A stretch of 64,000 nucleotides of DNA from Bacillota bacterium (GTDB lineage: Bacteria > Bacillota > Clostridia > Oscillospirales > Oscillospiraceae). Both the position numbers and the translations under genes were made by a program. The stretch is from assembly GCA_021770445.1 (NCBI GenBank), contig JAETQY010000005.1, positions 177,185 through 241,184 on the forward strand. The letters run 5' to 3'. Below are positions 51,561-64,000 of the stretch, piece by piece (the first letter of the stretch is position 1; every line of letters starts with the position of its first letter). The notes beneath the pieces were generated by a model. The model saw only the letters and a program-made list of their open reading frames with translations. It made no database searches and was not told the DNA's origin.

Positions 51561-52814
51561 TTACAGAAGGATGCGCTCCGGGAAGGCCTCCCGGCGCAGG
51601 ATGCCCCACATCTTGTCAATATAGGACAGGGTGTAGAAATTCTCGTAGTAGTGGTAGAAAAACGCCCCCTTCAGGGTCATCTGCCAGACGCCGTCCTCCT
51701 CCGTCACAAGGCCCAGCAGCCTGGCGGCCCTCAGCTCCAGGCCGTACATCCGCCTCAGCGGGACGCCGAAAAACCGCTGAAAGTCCCTCTCGTCTACCCG
51801 GGTGCTGTAGGCAGTCCAGAAGAGATAGTACACCATCCGCTGGCGGAGGGAAAACCGCAGGGTCAGGGAGGTGGGAAGCACCCCGCGCTCCACCCGTCGG
51901 CAATACTCCTGGACGGAAAAGGTGTTGATCTTGAACTGCTCCCGCAGCAGGGTGGTGGCGGAGCAGCCGAAGCCCAGGAAGTTGTCCCGGGTCATGGAGG
52001 AGTACCGAGCCCCCGCCCGGCTAGAGAAGGTCCAGATGGAGGTACGGGTATACCCCTGCTCCAGACAGTAGGTGGTGATCTGGTCCAGCAGCCTCCGCTT
52101 CTCCCCCTTGTCCATTGCCGGGAGGGAGCTGGAGGTAAAGGTGAAGTCGATAAAGGGGTAGATGGCCACATGGTTTGCCCCGCCGGCAAAGGCCAGATCC
52201 ACATCCGTCCGCAGGTCCTGGAAGGTCTGCCCCGGGAGGGCGAAGATCAGGTCCATGGACACCGTCTCGAAGGGGACCTGCTCCAGGGCGGCCGACAGGG
52301 CGGACAAGTCCACCGCCCCGCGCCCCAGGAGGGTCTGATACTTCTCCTGAAAGGACTGCACCCCTATGCTGATCTTCGTCACGCCAGCCTCCTTCAGTGT
52401 CCGCAGGAGGGGGACGGTCACGTCGTCCGGGTGGAGCTCCACTCCGATCCCCTGGGTGACGGTGAAGTGCTCCCCTACCGCCCCGATGATCTCCCCCAGC
52501 CGCCCGGCGGCCAGGGCCGGGGTCCCGCCACCGAAGTACAGGCTAGTGACCTCCCGTCTGCCCTCCGTCTGGCCGCCCACCATGTGGATCTCCCGGATCA
52601 GGGCATTGATGTACTGATCGCACAGATCGGCGTTGTAGACCGTCTTGCAGTAGGGGCAGAAATTGCACAGGCTCCGGCAGAAGGGGATGTGGATATACAG
52701 CCCCAGCCCCTCGCAGTCCCCATAGGGGAGGACCTGGTCAAACTCGCCGGTGAATACAAAGGGTTTTACAGACCGGGTGAGCCACATCCGCGTTAAATTG
52801 GTGATGATCCCCAT
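51561..52814 (-). CDS. Radical SAM protein, coproporphyrinogen III oxidase/HemW-like
   Basis: GLYIHIPFCRSLCNFCPYCKT, YFGGGTPALA, ISIGVQSF. Confidence 0.88.
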   Translation of the reverse strand: MGIITNLTRMWLTRSVKPFVFTGEFDQVLPYGDCEGLGLYIHIPFCRSLCNFCPYCKTVYNADLCDQYINALIREIHMVGGQTEGRREVTSLYFGGGTPALAAGRLGEIIGAVGEHFTVTQGIGVELHPDDVTVPLLRTLKEAGVTKISIGVQSFQEKYQTLLGRGAVDLSALSAALEQVPFETVSMDLIFALPGQTFQDLRTDVDLAFAGGANHVAIYPFIDFTFTSSSLPAMDKGEKRRLLDQITTYCLEQGYTRTSIWTFSSRAGARYSSMTRDNFLGFGCSATTLLREQFKINTFSVQEYCRRVERGVLPTSLTLRFSLRQRMVYYLFWTAYSTRVDERDFQRFFGVPLRRMYGLELRAARLLGLVTEEDGVWQMTLKGAFFYHYYENFYTLSYIDKMWGILRREAFPERILL

Positions 52815-52825
52815 AGGCCCGCTCC

Positions 52826-53728
52826 TCAGATATAGTGTAAATAGGTCCGCAGCATCTCCCAGATGACCTTGATATTCCCCCGGAACAGCAGGGTATACTC
52901 GGCCACAAAGAAATAGCCGCACCGCTGGCACAGGCCGGGCACATGGATGCACCGCCCGCAGGTACTGAGCTGGCCGTCCTCCATCACCACGCACTGGTGA
53001 CAGGGGGTTGGGAACCGGTTGTCAATGAGGTAGGGGAAGGCGCTCTTCAGGTTGAACACAGGGGCCCCCTCCTCCATCATTTGGATGATATCGGCACAGC
53101 ACCAGGCCTTCTCCTCCCGGCTCAGGGCCAGCTCCTCCGTGTCCGGATAGGGAGTATGGAAGTTGAAGGACACCGCCCGGACGTTGGGCTCCTCCTTTGC
53201 CATCCGGCACACATGCCGAATGGCCCCCTTGTTGATCTGGTTGATGGCCATATAGAGACAGATGTTGTCGGAGGAGGCATTGCGGATATTCTCCAGGATC
53301 AGGTCGTAGGTGTCCCCCCGGATGGCGTTGTGCCGCTCCCGGTCCCCGTCCAGGCTGAGAAGGATCAGGTCGGCCTGGGGCAGGTCCAGAGGGTAGGTGC
53401 CGTTGGTCACCACATTGACAATGAGAAAGCCCAGCGCCCGGGCCTCGATGACCAGCTCCCGCAGTCCTCTCTCTCCGTCCCGCCATAGGAAGGTCTCGCC
53501 GCCGCAGAAAAACAGGATACGCACCCCCATCCCATACAGGCGGACCATCTCCTCTCTGATCTGCCCGTAGGGGTAGATCACGGCGGTGATGTTGTTCACC
53601 GAGCAGTGCTTACAGTGCAGGTTGCACTTGTCTGTCAGGATGATAGTACCCAGAATGGGGTCCTTTCTTCGGAACAGGATGGTTTTTACGCCGAACCCGG
53701 CCAGATGGACAAACGATGAAAGCTTCAC
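52826..53728 (-). CDS. Radical SAM protein (GTG start)
   Basis: IILTDKCNLHCKHCSVN CxxxCxxC motif; C-terminal Cys-rich CHQCVVMEDGQLSTCGRCIHVPGLCQRCGYF. Confidence 0.88.
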   Translation of the reverse strand: MKLSSFVHLAGFGVKTILFRRKDPILGTIILTDKCNLHCKHCSVNNITAVIYPYGQIREEMVRLYGMGVRILFFCGGETFLWRDGERGLRELVIEARALGFLIVNVVTNGTYPLDLPQADLILLSLDGDRERHNAIRGDTYDLILENIRNASSDNICLYMAINQINKGAIRHVCRMAKEEPNVRAVSFNFHTPYPDTEELALSREEKAWCCADIIQMMEEGAPVFNLKSAFPYLIDNRFPTPCHQCVVMEDGQLSTCGRCIHVPGLCQRCGYFFVAEYTLLFRGNIKVIWEMLRTYLHYI

Positions 53729-53843: not shown

Positions 53844-53875
53844 GGGAGAGGTAACGTAAGGAAGTTACCTCTCCC
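53844..53875. other. Perfect hairpin near left boundary of mobile element
   Basis: GGGAGAGGTAAC-gtaaggaa-GTTACCTCTCCC. Confidence 0.6.
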
Positions 53876-53942
53876 TTATTATTTGTAGACAGCCGAAAGT
53901 GATTGAATTGCGGGGATATTCAACATATCGGAGGAAAGCATC

Positions 53943-54311
53943 ATGGCAAAGTCTACATTTGAACAAATGGGCGGAACTTACCGCCAAGAGGGAGAGTATT
54001 TTCTCCCGAACCTCACTGTGCCGGAAAGTGTTTCCATTGGTATCTGGGGCCAGCGGCGGAAACGGTATCTGCGAGAGCATAGAAAGGCACTCTACACCGC
54101 CATGCTGTTATCTGATAAACTAAACGATCACCTGACTGAAATCGACCAACAAGCTGAAAAAATGTTTCCTCAGCTTGTAAAGCAGATGGCAGGACAAGAG
54201 GATATCACCGAACAGCTTAAAGCAGATCATCAGATGGAATGGATAGGATTTATGAACGACATACGAAATAGAGCAATAGAAATTATAAATACAGACTTGA
54301 TCTACGTATAG
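53943..54311 (+). CDS. TnpV-family transposon-encoded protein
   Basis: MAKSTFEQMGGTYRQEGEYFLPNLTVPESVSIGIWGQRRKRYLREHRKALYTAMLLSDKLNDHLTEIDQQA. Confidence 0.85.
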   Translation: MAKSTFEQMGGTYRQEGEYFLPNLTVPESVSIGIWGQRRKRYLREHRKALYTAMLLSDKLNDHLTEIDQQAEKMFPQLVKQMAGQEDITEQLKADHQMEWIGFMNDIRNRAIEIINTDLIYV

Positions 54312-54320
54312 AGGATAGAG

Positions 54321-54362
54321 AAGGGTAGCAGAACAGCAATTGTTGGTTCTGCTACCCTTTTC
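54321..54362 (+). terminator. Terminator after tnpV
   Basis: AAGGGTAGCAGAAC / GTTCTGCTACCCTT perfect 14-bp stem plus T-rich tail. Confidence 0.8.
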
Positions 54363-54475
54363 CATATAAGCCAAAGCTTTCTTAGCAGAGCATCATTTTT
54401 GCTTGATGTTCAGGCTGATGTATGCTACAATAATAATGAAATTGTCAAATTATTTGTGGAAGATGAGGAATTATT

Positions 54476-55441
54476 ATGGGAATCAATAGAGATAGGCCAG
54501 ATTTATGGAAAGATGATATAATTCATTCCGTTGATTTGTACAATGATTGGTTTATGAAATTTGCGCCAAAAGCTTTTAGGGAAACACGTGTATCTACTGC
54601 AAGTAGTGTTGAGCGCGCATTATCTAATACAAATTATTTGCAAAACATTTCGGTGGAGCTGTTGCGAAATCATCCGGAAGTGTTACCCATATTAAGAATG
54701 TCCACGTGTCCGCCTATTGCAAGGGATAGACTTGTCGGTTTAGCTGGTGTAACAAAAAGCTTAGTAGAAAATATGGAAAATGTAAAAAATCCACATGTTT
54801 CTCCCCGAATGGCTACGGCGAGGTTGACCAGCGAACTTACTAAAATTGCTCGAATAATCAACCAAATGGCAGACCCAGATATTTTTATCTGGCTATCCGA
54901 AGGCCGTGTGCCTACTGAGGTAGAAGTTCAGCGCTCTGCCACTATTATTGCAGACAGATTGTGTGGAGCAGTTGCTGATCCTATTATTCGGAATGCTCAA
55001 GAAAAGCGCCAGCTTGCCGTTATAACAGAGTTCTTATGTGACAGAGGATATAGAGAGGCAAGTGTAGGAATAAAGTATAACGAAATGGTAGCAGGAACAT
55101 TCTCATTTCACACTAATGTTCCTGTATTGGTCGCAGAGGGAGCGGATAGCACCATAAACATACCTGTTGATGTAGCTGTCTTACCTAAAGCTGCCAAAGA
55201 CGGAGATTTTCCGTTGCTTATTGAAGCAAAATCAGCAGGTGATTTTACAAATGTAAATAAACGTCGTAAAGAGGAAGCAACTAAAATGCAACAGTTAAAA
55301 AACACATACGGCAAATCAGTTTCATATAGCTTGTTTTTATGCGGTTATTTTGATTCTGGATATTTGGGATATGAGGCCGCAGAAGGAATTGATTGGATAT
55401 GGGAGCACAGAATCATCGATTTGGAGCAGTTGGGAATCTAA
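54476..55441 (+). CDS. Restriction endonuclease, XamI-like
   Basis: Partner of overlapping adenine MTase; overall sequence resembles the XamI family; PLLIEAKSAGDFTNVNKRRKEE nuclease-like E-x-K core. Confidence 0.6.
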   Translation: MGINRDRPDLWKDDIIHSVDLYNDWFMKFAPKAFRETRVSTASSVERALSNTNYLQNISVELLRNHPEVLPILRMSTCPPIARDRLVGLAGVTKSLVENMENVKNPHVSPRMATARLTSELTKIARIINQMADPDIFIWLSEGRVPTEVEVQRSATIIADRLCGAVADPIIRNAQEKRQLAVITEFLCDRGYREASVGIKYNEMVAGTFSFHTNVPVLVAEGADSTINIPVDVAVLPKAAKDGDFPLLIEAKSAGDFTNVNKRRKEEATKMQQLKNTYGKSVSYSLFLCGYFDSGYLGYEAAEGIDWIWEHRIIDLEQLGI

Positions 55442-56958
55442 AAGCAATAGAAGCAAAAAGGATACAATTGCAAGCCGAAATAGATAGCAACAAAAGTATC
55501 GAAGATCGTAAGCGGCTGGGGCAGTTTGCAACCCCAATTGAATTGGCAAAAGAGATTATCTCATATGGATTAACATTACAAGACGATACAGAAATATCTT
55601 TTTTAGAGCCAGCATTTGGAACAGGGTCATTTTATTCAGCGCTCTTATCTGAGATTTCTCATTCAACAAAACAATTGAAGAATGTTGTTGGGATTGAGAT
55701 AGATGATGCGTTTTATACAGCGGCCCAAGACCTCTGGAAAAATACTAACATCACACTTATACATTCGGACTTTACAGCATTAAAGAGTTTGGGAACGGCT
55801 AATCTCTTGATCAGCAATCCACCATATGTTAGACACCATTATATAAATCAAGAGCAAAAAGTGAAACTTAGCACTTTAACCAAAGAAGAAACAAGCCTAT
55901 CTCTTTCTGGCCTTGCGGGTTTGTACTGTTACTTTATTTTGTTAGCCCACAAATGGCTTGCGCCAAACGCTATATGCGGATGGCTAATACCGAGCGAATT
56001 TTTGGATGTTAACTATGGCAATATTTTAAAGCAATATTTACTAAATAGTGTCCACTTATTAAGGGTGCATAGATACAATCCTGAACACTGTAAATTCAAT
56101 GATGCATTAGTTTCCTCATGTGTAGTGTGGTTTAAAAATGAAACAATATCAGGCAATTACGAAGTGGAGTTTTCGTATGGGGGTACACATAACAATCCGG
56201 AAGTGAGTCAAAAAATAGAGAAACAGAATTTAGAAGAATATAGAAAATGGACACATTTCCCCGCACTTAGAATGAAAAGCACGAGAATCGGCAGTAGTCA
56301 AGCACCAACATTAGGTGATTATTTCAATATTAAGCGTGGGCTTGCCACGGGAGACAACAATTTTTTCATTTTATCCAGAGAACAAATTGATAAGCTTAAT
56401 CTTGATATGAAATTTTTAACCCCAATTTTGCCAAGTCCTCGCTACTTGAAATGTGATGAGATATTTAGTGATTCAAATGGTTTGCCTCAGTTGGATACTC
56501 AATATTTTTTACTCAACTGTTCACTTCCAGAAGATGTATTAAAAGTTTATTACCCCTCAACTTGGTGCTATTTAGATAGTGGAAAGGAAACTACTGCTCA
56601 AAAGTATTTGTGTAAAAATCGAAAAGTTTGGTATTCGCAAGAGTATAGAGAAGCAACTCCTTTTTTGTGCTCGTATATGGGAAGAAGCAGGGATGATGAT
56701 ATTGCACCTTTTAGATTCATTTTAAATCACACAAGTGCTATTGCAACAAATTCCTACTTAATGTTATATCCTAAGCAATTTCTTAAAGAGGTCATTTCTC
56801 AATCTCCCGATATGGCACACAAAATATGGGGCATTCTTACAAGCATAGCAGCAAGCAATCTTGAGAGTGAGGGGCGAATTTATGGGGGAGGCTTAAAGAA
56901 AATAGAGCCTAAAGAACTTTCCCATGTAAAATGTCCGCAATTAACAGAATTGCTCTAA
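55399..56958 (+). CDS. N6-adenine DNA methyltransferase (Eco57I/TaqI-like)
   Basis: RLGQFATPIELAKEII, FLEPAFGTGSFYSALL, LLISNPPYVRHHYI. Confidence 0.9.
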   Translation: MGAQNHRFGAVGNLKAIEAKRIQLQAEIDSNKSIEDRKRLGQFATPIELAKEIISYGLTLQDDTEISFLEPAFGTGSFYSALLSEISHSTKQLKNVVGIEIDDAFYTAAQDLWKNTNITLIHSDFTALKSLGTANLLISNPPYVRHHYINQEQKVKLSTLTKEETSLSLSGLAGLYCYFILLAHKWLAPNAICGWLIPSEFLDVNYGNILKQYLLNSVHLLRVHRYNPEHCKFNDALVSSCVVWFKNETISGNYEVEFSYGGTHNNPEVSQKIEKQNLEEYRKWTHFPALRMKSTRIGSSQAPTLGDYFNIKRGLATGDNNFFILSREQIDKLNLDMKFLTPILPSPRYLKCDEIFSDSNGLPQLDTQYFLLNCSLPEDVLKVYYPSTWCYLDSGKETTAQKYLCKNRKVWYSQEYREATPFLCSYMGRSRDDDIAPFRFILNHTSAIATNSYLMLYPKQFLKEVISQSPDMAHKIWGILTSIAASNLESEGRIYGGGLKKIEPKELSHVKCPQLTELL

Positions 56959-57106
56959 AATATAATTGTTCGGTAGGTTATTATTGCCTTAAATTGATAT
57001 GATGATTGTGAAGTTAGGATATAGCAGAATAGCAAAAAGCACATTCACTTGATGCCCTATTTAAATTGTACTGAAAGCTCTAACATAAAAATACAAGGAG
57101 TTTGTC

Positions 57107-58636
57107 ATGAAAATCAGAAGCCTAAGGATCAAAAACTTTCGTGGATATTGTGATGAAATATCAATAAACTTTGATGAATTCACAGCACTTGTTGGGAAAA
57201 ATGATATCGGAAAATCCAGCATTGTGGACGCCTTAGATATATTTTTTAATGGTGGAAAAGGCGTTGTTCCCATAGAGAAAGAAGATGTAAATGTTGGTGC
57301 ACGGGCAAATCAGGAGAATGAAATAAGTATTGCAGTTTGTTTTTCGGAACTCCCAGATAGAATCGTTATTGATGCAACAAATGAAACCACGCTTTCCAGT
57401 GAACATCTCCTAAATACCGATGGCCTACTTGAGATTATAAAAAAGTATCCAAATGGTGGAAGCGCTAAGGTATTTATCAGAGCTTTCCATCCAACAAACC
57501 CGGATTGTGCAGACTTACTTTTGAAAAAGGACAATGAGTTGCGTCGAATAATAGATACAAAACAAGTTCCCTGTGATGATAGGACAAGAAACGCCGTAAT
57601 GAGATCAGCCATATGGCGATATTATAGCGATGATTTGCAGATGTCAACTATTGATATTGATGTTACAAAAGGAGATACAAAATCGATTTGGGAGAAATTA
57701 CAAAAATATTTGCCGATATATTCACTGTTTCAATCAGATAGAAAGAATAGTGATGGTGATAGTGAAGTGCAAGACCCACTCAAAGAAGCCGTGAAAGAAA
57801 TACTTCGGGATGAGGAATTGCAGCGGATATTGGATGGTGTGGCTACAACTGTTGAAGGAAAATTGAGAGAAGTTTCCACTCGTACTTTAGAAAAACTTCA
57901 GGAGATGAGCCCTGATATTGCCAGCACACTTGATCCAGTCATTCCTACAGCCAGTAGTTTGAAATGGGCAGATGTATTCAAAAATGTATCTATAACGAGT
58001 GATGAAAACATACCGATTAACAAACGTGGGAGCGGCTCAAAGCGGCTTATTCTGCTCAATTTTTTTCGAGCCGAGCTCGAACGACGCCAAAGCGAAGCAA
58101 ATGCAACAAGTGTAATATATGCGATTGAAGAACCTGAAACTTCCCAGCACACAGAAAATCAACGGAAGTTAATTCATGCGCTTATGGAATTGGCTCAGGC
58201 ACCTAACACCCAAGTTATCATCACAACGCATAGTGCACCAATTGTTCGGGAGTTGAACTTGTATAATATACGGCTTATTCGGAATGAAAACGGAGAGAAA
58301 ACAGTTGAGAATGTGCCTCGGAATCAGTTGCCATATCCCTCACTAAACGAAGTGAATTATTTAGCCTTTTCCGAAATCTCTGTAGAATATCATGATGAAT
58401 TATACGGATATATTGACGAGCAGGGATGGCTAAATGAGTATAAACAAGGAAAACCTACACGACCTTATATTCGTTTGCGTAGGGATGGAACTACTTTAGA
58501 AGAACCTAAAATTTTGAGCGAATATATTCGACATGTGATACACCACCCTGAAAATATAAATAATGCTCGGTTTACCTTGGATGAACTTCGTCAGTCTATT
58601 GAAATGATGAGAGATTTCATATCCAGCAAGATTTAA
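57107..58636 (+). CDS. AAA/OLD-like ATPase with HEPN-like C-terminal motif
   Basis: MKIRSLRIKNFRGYCDEISINFDEFTALVGKNDIGKSSIVDAL (Walker A), VIYAIEEPETSQH (Walker B), VIITTHSAPIVREL, C-terminal EYIRHVIHHPENINNARFTLDELRQSIEMM. Confidence 0.85.
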   Translation: MKIRSLRIKNFRGYCDEISINFDEFTALVGKNDIGKSSIVDALDIFFNGGKGVVPIEKEDVNVGARANQENEISIAVCFSELPDRIVIDATNETTLSSEHLLNTDGLLEIIKKYPNGGSAKVFIRAFHPTNPDCADLLLKKDNELRRIIDTKQVPCDDRTRNAVMRSAIWRYYSDDLQMSTIDIDVTKGDTKSIWEKLQKYLPIYSLFQSDRKNSDGDSEVQDPLKEAVKEILRDEELQRILDGVATTVEGKLREVSTRTLEKLQEMSPDIASTLDPVIPTASSLKWADVFKNVSITSDENIPINKRGSGSKRLILLNFFRAELERRQSEANATSVIYAIEEPETSQHTENQRKLIHALMELAQAPNTQVIITTHSAPIVRELNLYNIRLIRNENGEKTVENVPRNQLPYPSLNEVNYLAFSEISVEYHDELYGYIDEQGWLNEYKQGKPTRPYIRLRRDGTTLEEPKILSEYIRHVIHHPENINNARFTLDELRQSIEMMRDFISSKI

Positions 58637-58769
58637 GGCAACATACCATAATAGCGTCACCCACTGTTTGCCAAAAATTTGTTAAACTGTGATATTAGGC
58701 ATTGACATACACCCGTTCCATATGCTAAACTAAAACTCCCATTTAGTGGGCGAACTGAATACGGCTTTC

Positions 58770-58848
58770 AGCCGGTACATAGACAACCACACAAGAACCC
58801 CAGCGAGAGGAAAGCTCCCGCTGGGGTTGGTGCGTCTATGTACCGGCT
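58770..58848. other. Long nested hairpin (terminator-like)
   Basis: AGCCGGTACATAGAC (58770-58784) / GTCTATGTACCGGCT (58834-58848), inner AACCCCAGCG/CGCTGGGGTT, then TTCTTTTTT on + strand. Confidence 0.7.
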
Positions 58849-58941
58849 TCTTTTTTGCCCCAAACAACTGAATGACCGTCCGAATGGGATACTCCGCCAC
58901 GATCTCCGCCGGGGAGGGAGCGAAACAACGCCGCTGAAAAG

Positions 58942-60297
58942 GGTAAGGTACAATAAGATGCGCAAATTAAAAAAAGTATGAAAAGAGACATGGTTTGCAG
59001 GTCTCTGGTAGAATGAAGTTGGAACAGACCATTCTGAGAGGAGACAGTAAACCATGTCGGAGAAGATTGTACAGCTAAATGAAGAAGTAATCAAGGGTCA
59101 ATTAAAGGAACTGGTTCGAGGGAGCGTGGAAGAAACGCTAAACGAGCTGCTGGAGCAAGAAGCGGAGAAATTAACCCAGGCAGCCCGGTACGAGCGGAAT
59201 GAGGCTCGCCTGGGGTACCGCAGCGGTCACTACAACCGGAATCTTACCACCACCTCCGGAGATGTAACACTCCATGTGCCCCGCCTGAAGGGAGTCTCTT
59301 TTGAAACGGCCATCATAGAGCGGTATCGCCGGCGTGAAAGCAGTGTGGAGGAAGCTCTCATTGAAATGTACCTGGCTGGCGTCTCGGTGCGCAGAGTAGA
59401 GGATATTACCGAGGCGCTGTGGGGCAGCAAAGTGTCTCCAGCTACCATCAGCGAGTTGAACAAGAAAGCGTATGTCCACATTGAGGCTTGGCGCAACCGA
59501 CCTTTACAAGGTGGGCACTATCCGTATGTGTATGTGGACGGAATCTATCTGCGGCGCAACTGGGGCGGAGCGTATGAGAATGTAGCCATTCTGGTGGCAA
59601 TTGCGGTAAATGAGGACGGTTACCGTGAAGTTCTTGGTGCTACTGAGGGTATGAAAGAGGACAAGGCCAGTTGGGTCAGCTTCTTTCAGTGGCTGCGAGG
59701 CCGTGGCCTGAACGGTGTAAAGCTGGTAGTTGGGGACAAATGCCTTGGGATGCTGGAGGCGGTGGGAGAGGTGTTCCCGGAGGCCAAATACCAGCGGTGT
59801 ACTGTCCATTTCTACCGCAATGTATTTTCTGTGACACCGCGCTCTAAGGTGAAACTGGTAGCCAAGATGCTCAAGGCGATTCACGCCCAGGAGTGCAAAA
59901 AAGCTGCTCGGGAGAAGGCCAAAGCTGTGGCAGAGGAGCTTCGTGCCATGAAGCTGAGAGAGGCTGCTAAGAAAGTTGAGGATGGTATTGAGGAGACGTT
60001 GACTTACTGCGACTTTCCCAGCGAACACTGGACTCGCATCCGCACGAACAACGTCATTGAGCGGCTCAACCGGGAGATCCGCCGCCGCACCAGGGTGGTG
60101 GGCTGCTTCCCGGATGGCAATTCTGCCCTGATGCTGGTCTGCGCCAGGCTCCGCCACGTAGCCGGCACCCAGTGGGGCAACAAGAAGTACATGAATATGA
60201 AGCACTTAGAGGCGATCCAAGAAGACACCCCTATTGCTGGCTGACCTCATTTAGCCAGAGTCTGCAAACCATTTTGCGCATTATTCTTGACATTACC
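58942..60297 (+). mobile_element. IS256-family insertion sequence
   Basis: Imperfect IRs GGTAAGGTACAATAAGATGCGCAAA / GGTAATGTCAAGAATAATGCGCAAA (reverse complement of right end) and duplicated CTGAAAAG at 58934-58941 and 60298-60305. Confidence 0.88.
59054..60244 (+). CDS. IS256-family (mutator-type) transposase
   Basis: YVYVDGIYLRRNWGGAYENVAILVAIAVNEDGYREVLG; RTNNVIERLNREIRRRTRVVGCFPDGNSALMLVCARL. Confidence 0.96.
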   Translation: MSEKIVQLNEEVIKGQLKELVRGSVEETLNELLEQEAEKLTQAARYERNEARLGYRSGHYNRNLTTTSGDVTLHVPRLKGVSFETAIIERYRRRESSVEEALIEMYLAGVSVRRVEDITEALWGSKVSPATISELNKKAYVHIEAWRNRPLQGGHYPYVYVDGIYLRRNWGGAYENVAILVAIAVNEDGYREVLGATEGMKEDKASWVSFFQWLRGRGLNGVKLVVGDKCLGMLEAVGEVFPEAKYQRCTVHFYRNVFSVTPRSKVKLVAKMLKAIHAQECKKAAREKAKAVAEELRAMKLREAAKKVEDGIEETLTYCDFPSEHWTRIRTNNVIERLNREIRRRTRVVGCFPDGNSALMLVCARLRHVAGTQWGNKKYMNMKHLEAIQEDTPIAG

Positions 60298-60384
60298 CTG
60301 AAAAGGGGCAGGACACCATCCGGGAAAAACGGCAAAGCTGGGTGGTGGCAAATCGCCGTCACATGAACTGCGCCAAACCACCAT

Positions 60385-60472
60385 GACGGCATTTTGCCGT
60401 CTGCCCATGTGACGTCAAATTTGACGCCACTCCACCATCTGCAATCAGCCATGACGCCATTTTTGATGTCAC
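60385..60472. other. Three consecutive palindromes, oriT/operator candidate
   Basis: GACGGCATTTTGCCGTC (60385-60401), GTGACGTCAAATTTGACGCCAC (60409-60430), ATGACGCCATTTTTGATGTCAC (60451-60472). Confidence 0.55.
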
Positions 60473-60657
60473 TTTTATATAGCATCGACCCCATAGCGCC
60501 CCGCAGAAGAGAAGCCACCGAACGACAGCCCGCAACCCTGTCTTGTGGGGTAGCGAGCATAGCTTTTGTGTTGCCGGGGGCACCCCAAAAGCGGGCGGCG
60601 CTTTGCGCCGAAAGGGGCTCCACCCCTATAACCCCAGCCAGAAAGGAGCGGATCAAA

Positions 60658-60963
60658 ATGGCCGACAGAAAGAGAACGACAGCCATCCAAGTTCGGGTGA
60701 CCGAGCAGGAAAAGCGGAAACTGGAACGGCAGGCCAAGCGTTGCGGCCTGTCCCTGTCCGGGTATCTCCGGCGGGTGGGTACCGGGAAACCTGTGGCGGT
60801 GTTCCCCGGCCAGCGGTTCCATACCCTCTATCAGCGGGTCAATGTCCTGCGGGATAACCTCACCACCCAGTCTATGGAGCAGACAGCGGCCCAACTGGAC
60901 GAGTTAGCGGGGCAAATCCTGGCAGCTTACACCAGCGGAGGTGTGGACGATGGCAACAACTAA
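60658..60963 (+). CDS. MobC-type relaxosome accessory protein
   Basis: TTAIQVRVTEQEKRKLERQAKRCGLSLSGYLRRVGTGKPV; RHH-like N-terminus, upstream of relaxase. Confidence 0.88.
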   Translation: MADRKRTTAIQVRVTEQEKRKLERQAKRCGLSLSGYLRRVGTGKPVAVFPGQRFHTLYQRVNVLRDNLTTQSMEQTAAQLDELAGQILAAYTSGGVDDGNN

Positions 60964-62332
60964 AATATGGCCCGTCAAGGACAGCCTTGCCCGTGTCGTA
61001 GACTATGCTAAAAACCCGGACAAGACTGTCTACTCGGATTTGCAAAAAGTTCTCCACTACGCCGCAAACGAGGAAAAGACCGTTGAGGGTGGGGAGCGGG
61101 CCATGTTCGTTACCGGCGTAAACTGCAACCGGGACACCGCTTTTCAAGAAATGCAAGCGGTCAAGGAGCGGTTCGGCAAGGCGGGCGGAAACGTGGCCTA
61201 CCACGCATATCAGAGTTTTAAGCCCGGAGAAGTCACCCAGGAGCTGTGCCATCGGCTCGGGGTAGAATTGGCAAAACGGATGTGGGGCGACGAGTACCAG
61301 GTGCTTGTCGCCACCCACTTCAACACTGGCACCTATCACAATCATTTTGTGGTCAATTCTGTGGGCCTGTGGGACGGCCAAAAATTCAACTGCGGCAAAC
61401 GGGCCTACTATCAGTTTCGCCAGTTATCAGACGACTTATGCAAGGAATACCAGCTTTCCATCATCAAAAACCCAAAAGGCAAAACACCTCGGAGCATTTA
61501 CTTTGCTGAAAAGAACGGCGAACCCACCAAGTACAACCTGATGCGGGAGGCCCTGGACGCCGCCCTCAAGGTCAGCGTAGACGGGAGCGACCTACGGAAA
61601 GCCCTCCGGGATCAGGGGTATGAGTTGGACACCAATTCCACCCACAAATATGCCACCTTGCGGCGGGTCGGGAGTAAAAAGGCTGTGCGGCTGCACAGGC
61701 TGGGGGAGGGCTACGATCTCCCTGCTCTCCGGGAGCGAATTGAGGAAAACCGCCAGCGGTATGCCTATGACTTGGGTTATCAGCGGTACAAGCCTGTCCC
61801 CGTTCAGCGGCCACGTCCCAGGCGTTTACAGTTAAAAGTCTCTTTCAGCACAGTAAAGAAAATCGGCGGTTTCCGGGGACTGTATCTGCACTATTGCTAC
61901 TGCTTGGGCATCCTGCCCGAAGGGAGTGGCCATCGTCCCCTCTCCCCGGAATTGCGGGAGGAGTGCCGTCGTCTGGACAGTATCAGCCGTCAGGCGCAGT
62001 TGATTTGCAGGGAAAAGCTGGACACCCGGCAGGACGTTGAGGATTTTATCAGCGAAAAACAGGCTGAAATAAAGGAATTGGGTGCCGCTCGTCAGAAATG
62101 CTACAACCGCCTGCGTCGCTGTCATGATGGGGCGGGGATCGCCCGGATCAAGGCCCAGCGTGACCGGCTGACGGCGGCAATGGCTGTTTGCCGAAAGGAC
62201 ATCAAAACCGCCGAAAACTTACTTTCCCAGAGTGATCGACTGAAAGAGAATTTGAAGCTGGAACAGAAAATGCAGACCCAACGCATGGGCCGCACACAGG
62301 ATAAGCGCAGAGAAAGGATTGTTGCCAGATGA
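60950..62332 (+). CDS. Relaxase/mobilization nuclease (MobA/VirD2-like)
   Basis: MATTKIWPVKDSLARVVDYAKNPDKT...YHAYQSFKPGEVT...LVATHFNTGTYHNHFVVNSV. Confidence 0.93.
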   Translation: MATTKIWPVKDSLARVVDYAKNPDKTVYSDLQKVLHYAANEEKTVEGGERAMFVTGVNCNRDTAFQEMQAVKERFGKAGGNVAYHAYQSFKPGEVTQELCHRLGVELAKRMWGDEYQVLVATHFNTGTYHNHFVVNSVGLWDGQKFNCGKRAYYQFRQLSDDLCKEYQLSIIKNPKGKTPRSIYFAEKNGEPTKYNLMREALDAALKVSVDGSDLRKALRDQGYELDTNSTHKYATLRRVGSKKAVRLHRLGEGYDLPALRERIEENRQRYAYDLGYQRYKPVPVQRPRPRRLQLKVSFSTVKKIGGFRGLYLHYCYCLGILPEGSGHRPLSPELREECRRLDSISRQAQLICREKLDTRQDVEDFISEKQAEIKELGAARQKCYNRLRRCHDGAGIARIKAQRDRLTAAMAVCRKDIKTAENLLSQSDRLKENLKLEQKMQTQRMGRTQDKRRERIVAR

Positions 62333-62598
62333 GCGTATTTCAGATTGAATTGACAGAAAAAGAATGGGAAATCTACGAGAAAATACAAGCCAGGGTAGGG
62401 GCAGAAACCGCTTGTCTTGCCACGTTGAGTCCAGAACAACGCCTTGTATGGTTCCGGGAACATCAGTATCCCCATCCCATCAGCTTTGAGCGAGAAATCA
62501 GCGGAACCATCTACACCGTCAACGCCCGTTTTAGCGAGGATGCCAAAAACGCCGAGGAAAAGATAAAACGCATTCTCAACCGAAATATCACACGTTAA
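62329..62598 (+). CDS. Small hypothetical protein of mobilizable element
   Basis: 89 aa, ATG overlaps relaxase stop. Confidence 0.65.
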   Translation: MSVFQIELTEKEWEIYEKIQARVGAETACLATLSPEQRLVWFREHQYPHPISFEREISGTIYTVNARFSEDAKNAEEKIKRILNRNITR

Positions 62599-62681
62599 AG
62601 TGTTGAAGTTTTGCGCCGGGTGTGGTATGATAATAGCACCTTGCAATTCATATCACATCCGGCTGCGGAAAGGAGCATATT

Positions 62682-64000
62682 TTGAAAAAGCAGCCAAATG
62701 AACAGCGAATTACAGTGTTATACGCCAGATTGTCCCGTGACGACGAGAAAGAGGGCATCTCCGGCAGTATCCAGAATCAAAGGGCTATTTTGGAGAAGTT
62801 TGCCGCAGACAACCATCTGCCAAGCCCCCGGTTCATGTTCGACGATGGGTACTCAGGTGTTACGTTCGCAAGGCCGGCTTTTATGGAGATCATGGAGTTG
62901 GCAGAACAGGGCCTTGTGGCAAATTTGGTGGTTAAAGATCATTCCCGGCTGGGCCGCAACCGCCTTATAGTGGGCCAGCTTCTGGAAGAGGATTTTGTGC
63001 GGCTGAACGTGCGGTACATCGCTATCATGGACAACATCGACACCGCCAACGGAGTGAGCGACATTGTGCCCATGCAAGACTTGTTCAATGAGTGGCACGC
63101 AAAAAATACGAGCGATAAGGTTCGCCGTGTCATGCAGAGCCGGGGAAACGCCGGAATACCGCTGACCACAAATGTTCCCTATGGCTACAAGAAAGACCCC
63201 GAGGATAAAAATAACTGGATCGTGGACGAAGCGACAGCACAGGTGGTACAGCGGATATTCCAGATGTGTATCAGCGGCCTGGGGCCTACGCAGATTGCCA
63301 AGCGGCTAAAGGCTGACGGTGTGCTGACGCCCAGCGAATACCAGCGCAGTATCGGCGTGAACTGTCCGACCAAACTTCCCGAATACCCGCACAAATGGTG
63401 CTCGCACACAGTTGCGGAAATCCTGGATCGACAGGAGTATGTGGGCGACACGGTAAACTTCCGTACTTACCGCCAGTCTTTTAAGCTGAAAAAGCAGTTG
63501 GACAGGCCGCAAGAGGAATGGAAAGTGTTCCCCAATACCCACCCCGCCATCATTGACCGGGAAACCTTTGCCCTTGTCCAAACCCTCCGCCAGCACCGCC
63601 GCAGACCCACAAGGACAGGCGCTGTGAGTATGTTCTCCGGGCTTCTTTACTGCACCGACTGCGGCAGTAAGCTGGGGTACAGCGCCACCAACAACTACAA
63701 GCGGGAACAAGCCTATTTTTTCTGTTCCGGCTACCGCAAAAATACCGACCTATGTTCTGCTCACTACATTCGGGAAAAGGTCGTGGAACAGCTTGTCCTT
63801 GAGGGACTGCAAAGGCTCCTATGGTACGTCCAGGTCTATAAAAAGCGGTTTGCCCAGGATCAAATGGAACGGTTTGGCCTGCAAGAGAAGAAAGAGTTGA
63901 CCGCCAAGCGCCGGGAGTTGGACAGGGCCAAACAGCGGGTGCCGGAGATTGACCAGCTCATCCAGAAAAGCTACGAGGACATGACCAAGGGCCTGCTGTC
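62682..64000 (+). CDS. Large serine recombinase (3' end beyond window; TTG start)
   Basis: Hand translation LKKQPNEQRITVLYARLSRDDEKEGISGSIQNQRAILEKFA...LVVKDHSRLGRNRLIVGQLLE; recombinase domain and zinc beta-ribbon (LLYCTDCGSKLGY). Absent from ORF track because it has no stop in the window. Confidence 0.95.
   Translation, partial: MKKQPNEQRITVLYARLSRDDEKEGISGSIQNQRAILEKFAADNHLPSPRFMFDDGYSGVTFARPAFMEIMELAEQGLVANLVVKDHSRLGRNRLIVGQLLEEDFVRLNVRYIAIMDNIDTANGVSDIVPMQDLFNEWHAKNTSDKVRRVMQSRGNAGIPLTTNVPYGYKKDPEDKNNWIVDEATAQVVQRIFQMCISGLGPTQIAKRLKADGVLTPSEYQRSIGVNCPTKLPEYPHKWCSHTVAEILDRQEYVGDTVNFRTYRQSFKLKKQLDRPQEEWKVFPNTHPAIIDRETFALVQTLRQHRRRPTRTGAVSMFSGLLYCTDCGSKLGYSATNNYKREQAYFFCSGYRKNTDLCSAHYIREKVVEQLVLEGLQRLLWYVQVYKKRFAQDQMERFGLQEKKELTAKRRELDRAKQRVPEIDQLIQKSYEDMTKGLL

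Follow-up and report, generated by a model that had tools for sequence, protein, structure and literature searches.

P0001, a protein of 509 amino acids encoded at positions 57107..58636 on the forward strand of the window (the whole 64,000-nucleotide stretch analyzed here), combines an AAA_15/OLD-type ABC-ATPase with a C-terminal HEPN-like module that recurs on other proteins and contains a conserved arginine-histidine motif. Its gene adjoins a restriction-modification (R-M) pair, and its closest ATPase relatives outside the family carry a different effector. With moderate confidence, we interpret P0001 as a single-gene, R-M-linked abortive-infection guard, in which an autoinhibited ABC sensor would be coupled to a HEPN-type RNase effector and act as a suicide backup.

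The ATPase and its TOPRIM-bearing relatives

The open reading frame of P0001 is intact, begins with an ATG preceded by the ribosome-binding site AAGGAG, and is present in a single copy in its genome; promoter and terminator scans gave matches at chance level only. Residues 1-380 matched AAA_15 in Pfam (8.6e-89). We aligned P0001 with 40 other full-length relatives, 50-77% identical to it, to give a 41-sequence alignment. The SMC-like ATPase core described in the first-pass annotation (GKNDIGKSS, YAIEEPE, and, following them, VIITTHSAP) is present, and most of its positions proved invariant in these 41 members. Invariant positions, all on the forward strand, comprise G30, N32, D33, G35, and K36 of Walker A (GKNDIGKSS, residues 30-38, 57194..57220), Y338 and I340-H348 of Walker B (YAIEEPETSQH, residues 338-348, 58118..58150), where A339 is nearly invariant, and the complete switch/H-loop TTHS (residues 373-376, 58223..58234). 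The signature-like NKRGSG (residues 305-310) was almost fully invariant as well. Because these four motifs are nearly invariant among the 41 members, P0001 is expected to be a working ATPase. The best PDB matches of P0001 were 6p74 (OLD) and GajA, and Foldseek with the full-length protein showed the ATPase part alone. No TOPRIM model matched P0001 at E values up to 1 in a Pfam scan, in agreement with the earlier description of the protein as lacking this domain.

A scan of a collection of species genomes identified 50 loci, most of which contained full-length relatives of P0001, with identities in the best segment of mostly 47-78%. The hosts belong to Bacillota, Bacteroidota, Pseudomonadota, Campylobacterota, and Planctomycetota, together with one archaeal (Altarchaeum) MAG. 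The family is rare, and only one of the 398 genomes sampled in the phylum, that of the window itself, contained it. The reading frame was interrupted in two gene copies, L047:7001-7834 (Pseudoflavonifractor sp. Marseille-P3106), in which residues 1-277 were 78% identical to the window copy, and L044:7001-8529, which suggests gene decay in some hosts.

ATPase relatives about 35-44% identical to P0001 over residues 1-401, with L074 and L080-L091 at about 42%, were located on plasmids of Enterobacteria and on viral contigs. Their C-terminus is a TOPRIM-type region of about 230 aa, compared with the 106-aa module of P0001. The OLD-like_TOPRIM model was matched by L074 (1.2e-6) and L086 (6.5e-4), and in the remaining relatives TOPRIM was called by eye from the pattern VEGxxDxxF...D.D. 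In a FastTree phylogeny built from the ATPase region, a single clade (support 0.997) held the TOPRIM-bearing proteins and adjoined the module-bearing ones, and two further carriers of the module, L092 and L093, were placed far from both. The effector has thus been swapped, since the nearest ATPases carry a TOPRIM-type nuclease in place of the module; the root and exact branch order of this tree are not fixed, so the direction of the swap (TOPRIM or module first) is not readable from it.

The C-terminal module: motif, portability, and fold

The module occupies residues 404-509 (58316..58633, forward strand), and the protein ends in EYIRHVIHHPENINNARFTLDELRQSIEMMRDFISSKI, within which the motif R475-H-V-I-H-H480 lies at 58529..58546 on the same strand. 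HEPN active sites are characterized by an R-x4-6-H motif with H, N, or D after the arginine (PMC3710099). The first-pass annotation had matched RHVIHH to this pattern, and conservation indicates that the fit is more than chance. R475, I478, H479, H480, P481, E482, N483, and N486 were invariant in all 41 members, and residue 476 was H in 37, N in 3, and D in 1, so that the block R475-[H37/N3/D1]-[Q]-I-H479-H480-P-E-N483-x-x-N486 is essentially fixed in the family. R475 and H480 were also invariant in a 44-row alignment and in a set of 11 diverged carriers of the module, where they were the sole invariant positions of R[H/N/D]xxxH. Elsewhere in the module, H429, L494, S497, and I498 were strictly invariant in the diverged set, and N486 and R488 were lost. 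Many HEPN families also conserve an acidic residue in an earlier helix (Ex3[KR]), of which we found no clear equivalent in the module: E431, in the helix 426-438, was invariant in the 41 members, variable in the diverged set, and without the Ex3[KR] spacing.

The module is portable between AAA_15 proteins, distant ABC-ATPases, and PF18871. It was found on clearly different ABC-ATPases at six loci (L053, L092, L093, L202, L203, and L220), with module identities to P0001 of 25-40% where measured. The carrier in L053 is a 667-aa protein from a genome of the same genus as the window, L092 and L093 are viral contigs, and the carriers in L202 and L203 are plasmid proteins. At L220 (5998-7446, Escherichia coli SCU-316) and L221, a module-bearing ATPase directly follows an integrase at the rcnR locus, and in SCU-316 the next gene after the ATPase encodes a capsid protein. 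Of 5426 complete E. coli genomes, 10 contained such a relative of the L202 carrier, with about 69% identity at the DNA level across 67% of the query. A 306-aa protein of the Staphylococcus epidermidis plasmid pSE45A5-2 (L201:4386-5306) bears the module without an ATPase; its N-terminal part is the HEPN/Toprim N-terminal domain PF18871 (2.3e-15), its module motif reads IRNxVHHPEN, and it offers a smaller system for study of the module. HEPN/Toprim-NTD1 has been reported in fusions with nucleases of the HEPN, TOPRIM, or Mrr type, and the ERFG_01251 HEPN family is fused both to ABC-ATPases and to HEPN/Toprim-NTD1 (PMC3710099).

AlphaFold2 modeled the isolated module with a pLDDT of 94.8 and a pTM of 0.86, using an alignment from which one row from a phage record was left out. 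The model consists of helix 413-421, helix 426-438, a short helix, a beta hairpin (451-469), helix 470-479 with R475, a loop, and helix 491-508. Ahead of the motif, the model has short helices of 9 and 13 residues together with the hairpin, which departs from the long helical bundle typical of HEPN. Foldseek with this model returned nothing better than E 0.55 against the PDB, although the PDB contains HEPN structures, and no meaningful match in BFVD. In Pfam, the module matched no family and the HEPN models did not rise above noise; hhalign gave no significant score against HepT, DUF4145, ApeA, RiboL, or RloC. The R-x4-H motif was placed in register with that of HepT at a non-significant score, and true HEPN families used as controls were mostly non-significant too. 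Column shuffles had favored HepT and DUF4145 (0/60), but a reversed HepT control outscored the true HepT, and we therefore set this profile-profile result aside. The proposal of a HEPN-like C-terminus consequently holds up for the conserved arginine and histidine; the fold is not recognizable as HEPN by Foldseek, Pfam, or hhalign. Based on the motif syntax, the position of the motif before the last helix, and the domain partners of the module, we consider its assignment to HEPN probable.

A less probable alternative is that the module is a catalytic effector of another class, with a novel nuclease fold or with the activity of a Fic/Doc-like modifier (H480-P-x4-N486-x-R488), still within an R-M-linked suicide system. 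The missing HEPN fold match in the PDB and BFVD is consistent with this, as are the many further invariant polar residues (S412, N414, E415, H429, E431, E482, N483, and S497). H480, P481, and N486, all invariant, together with R488, which is mostly R, recall the Fic motif HPFx(D/E)GNGR, and the modeled helix-loop-helix with an upstream beta hairpin is compatible with such an enzyme. However, the F and G positions of Fic are not kept, R488 varies (K, P, H), and the diverged carriers dispense with N486 while retaining R475 and H480; the PDB also contains Fic structures, and none of them matched either. We therefore rejected the specific Fic/Doc assignment as a likeness of motif alone. The restriction of residue 476 to H, N, or D, as in HEPN, argues against a different effector more generally. 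An HNH (beta-beta-alpha) reading of the hairpin and the following helix was likewise discarded, because the hairpin has no conserved histidine.

Mobile cargo and the link to restriction-modification

The gene lies in a cargo slot of a mobilizable element (54258..58700), between a TnpV gene and the mobilization module, with the flanks of the element at 53844-54257 and 58701-64000. Earlier described as AT-rich cargo, this segment has a GC content of 0.36-0.40, compared with about 0.60 for the flank upstream of it. Two genomes of the same genus (G005 and G035) have different cargo between the same flanks, which identifies the slot as a changeable cargo site. The slot in G005 (L217) contains a C5 methyltransferase, a DUF4928 endonuclease, Vsr, a Ymh-HEPN protein, and an AbiTii-like protein; a type II R-M system is thus paired with a recognized HEPN protein at the slot position of the R-M genes and P0001. 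The slot in G035 (L218:5005-9513) holds four genes encoding proteins of 597, 118, 403, and 371 aa, among them an AAA ATPase with a weak IetA match and another protein with a weak LmuB match, and looks like an uncharacterized defense system. An extra insertion at about 58940-60299 of the window belongs to the IS256 family, has imperfect inverted repeats of 27 nt, and is absent from the element in G005 and G035. Outside the element, two adjoining minus-strand genes at 51561-53728 have radical-SAM-like Cys motifs (CxxxCxxC).

The cargo upstream of P0001 consists of a XamI-family type II restriction endonuclease (PF09572; 54476..55441, forward strand; Pfam 7.7e-106) and its partner, an Eco57I-like type II DNA methyltransferase (55393..56958, forward strand; PADLOC MTase_II 1.2e-138, Pfam Eco57I 4e-13). 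Position 55393 is the first possible start of the methyltransferase, and the reading frame as given overlaps the endonuclease. The R-M module that the first-pass annotation placed next to the gene is therefore genuine, and the association extends to the family. R-M genes were detected within 3.5 kb of the gene in 18 of 44 loci, and none was seen within this distance in more than half of them. By distance, R-M matches accounted for 22 of 83 ORFs at 0-1 kb and for 11 of 90, 5 of 83, and 2 of 62 farther out, a gradient that is suggestive but not a rigorous test, because part of the R-M query set came from the same loci.

All three main types of R-M systems were represented. The gene is inserted between hsdS and hsdR in L006, L038, and L039: in the Campylobacter coli genome of L038, HsdS upstream and HsdR downstream were identified by Pfam and PADLOC, as was the downstream HsdR in L006, and L039 is alike by homology. 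HsdS is also located near the gene in L018 and HsdR in L034. NgoBV, Eco47II, and BsoBI type II endonucleases adjoin family genes at other loci, and type III-like Mod/Res genes are located nearby in L014 and L016. Shedu or Qat genes were found near the gene in L007 and L031. Among the TOPRIM-bearing relatives, 2 of 12 loci had R-M genes nearby. The prrC and rlo genes are known to sit in R-M loci (PMC3710099, PMC2610378, PMC2928727), and our data support a non-accidental link of the same pattern for the P0001 family.

Proposed function and relation to known systems

In the R-M-linked guard that we favor, the OLD/AAA_15-type ABC-ATPase (residues 1-400) would bind ATP, probably oligomerize, and keep the module (residues 404-509) inactive. 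The trigger may be a phage that disturbs restriction, through a DNA mimic, unmodified or damaged DNA, or a nucleotide change, upon which the ATPase would change state and free the module. The module would then act as a metal-independent HEPN-type endoribonuclease through R475, H476, and H480, with tRNA or other host RNA as its most likely target, leading to a translation stop. We infer this chemistry, substrate, trigger, and phenotype from PrrC, RloC, and PARIS (PMC2610378, PMC3710099, PMC9122126, PMC11455837, PMC12409363).

PrrC and RloC resemble P0001 in joining an ABC-ATPase to a C-terminal RNase, putative in P0001, and in the location of prrC and rlo genes in type I R-M loci. Their catalysis is metal-independent and of the HEPN type, a likeness to P0001 by proposal only. 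Their catalytic triad is R-x3-E-x(36-52)-H (PMC2610378), a spacing unlike the R-x4-H of P0001, and the zinc hook is absent from P0001, which also gave no match to AAA_13 (Rad50-like, PrrC/RloC type) at E values up to 1. APECO1_4465 and ERFG_01251 (PMC3710099) share with P0001 an N-terminal ABC-ATPase and a C-terminal HEPN (HEPN-like in P0001). The HEPN of ERFG_01251 also occurs on HEPN/Toprim-NTD1, as the module does in L201, and APECO1_4465 occurs in prophage islands (PMC3710099), comparable to the integrase island in which the L220 carrier has a capsid gene as its neighbor. Compared with these prototypes by their descriptions only, the P0001 clade differs in having an AAA_15 ATPase in common with TOPRIM proteins and in its R-M link.

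PARIS shares with P0001 an OLD/AAA_15-type ATPase sensor and an RNA-directed effector (putative in P0001), and its triggers are anti-restriction proteins, giving a logical link to restriction as for P0001. This allows a more specific reading, which we consider unlikely, of P0001 as an effector-swapped one-gene counterpart of PARIS, in which AAA_15 would sense anti-restriction proteins and free a HEPN-type RNase of new structure instead of AriB, guarding type I, II, and III R-M systems. P0001 did match the PADLOC AriA model (3.8e-76), but we did not take this label at face value, because the model responds to AAA_15 proteins in general and the solved AriA is distant, matching the family profile around Walker B only. 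AriB, DUF4435, and TOPRIM were absent from P0001 and from the scanned neighbors, and without AriB P0001 is not PARIS. OLD class 1 and GajA share the ATPase fold and motifs, whereas their nuclease is TOPRIM and P0001 carries the HEPN-like module instead; Gabija moreover includes a GajB helicase, and none is encoded beside P0001. Lacking TOPRIM, P0001 is therefore not OLD or GajA.

In an improbable reading, P0001 would be an OLD-type ATPase acting on DNA, its module would bind DNA or a partner instead of cleaving RNA, and the protein would stimulate or control the neighboring R-M enzyme. OLD and GajA, the solved proteins nearest to it in sequence and in fold, are DNA nucleases, and the gene lies inside R-M operons. 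Yet the R-M systems that accompany the gene belong to types I, II, and III and have unrelated endonucleases, no R-M gene was seen near more than half of the loci, the module is also found on PF18871 in a protein that lacks an ATPase, and the strict conservation of R, H, E, and N looks catalytic. A role of the ATPase in housekeeping or in maintenance of the element, and none in defense, for which one could cite an archaeal OLD protein that acts in the cell cycle (PMC12796447) and a P0001 without known phenotype, is very improbable given a gene so sporadic in its phylum, patchy across phyla despite high identity, and carried on mobile elements in defense neighborhoods.

ABC-HEPN fusions were catalogued in 2013 (PMC3710099), so proteins of the general kind of P0001 are already known, and OLD-type ATPases with alternative nucleases (HNH, PD-(D/E)XK, and PIN) have been published (PMC12839542). 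A limited literature search, in which ABC-ATPase classification was incompletely covered, found no publication that describes this module on an AAA_15 ATPase or a TOPRIM/HEPN-like swap, and both seem undescribed.

If the R-M-linked guard is correct, two nuclease classes that are unrelated to each other, TOPRIM and HEPN-like, share a single ATPase scaffold, and the split between sensor and effector in OLD-type defense would be directly testable through domain swaps. If the module is instead not HEPN, a strictly conserved, portable effector domain with no recognized solved relative would be a target in itself. As a guard, the P0001 family would represent a compact one-gene suicide backup that travels with all three main R-M types, in addition to the handful of anticodon nucleases already described.
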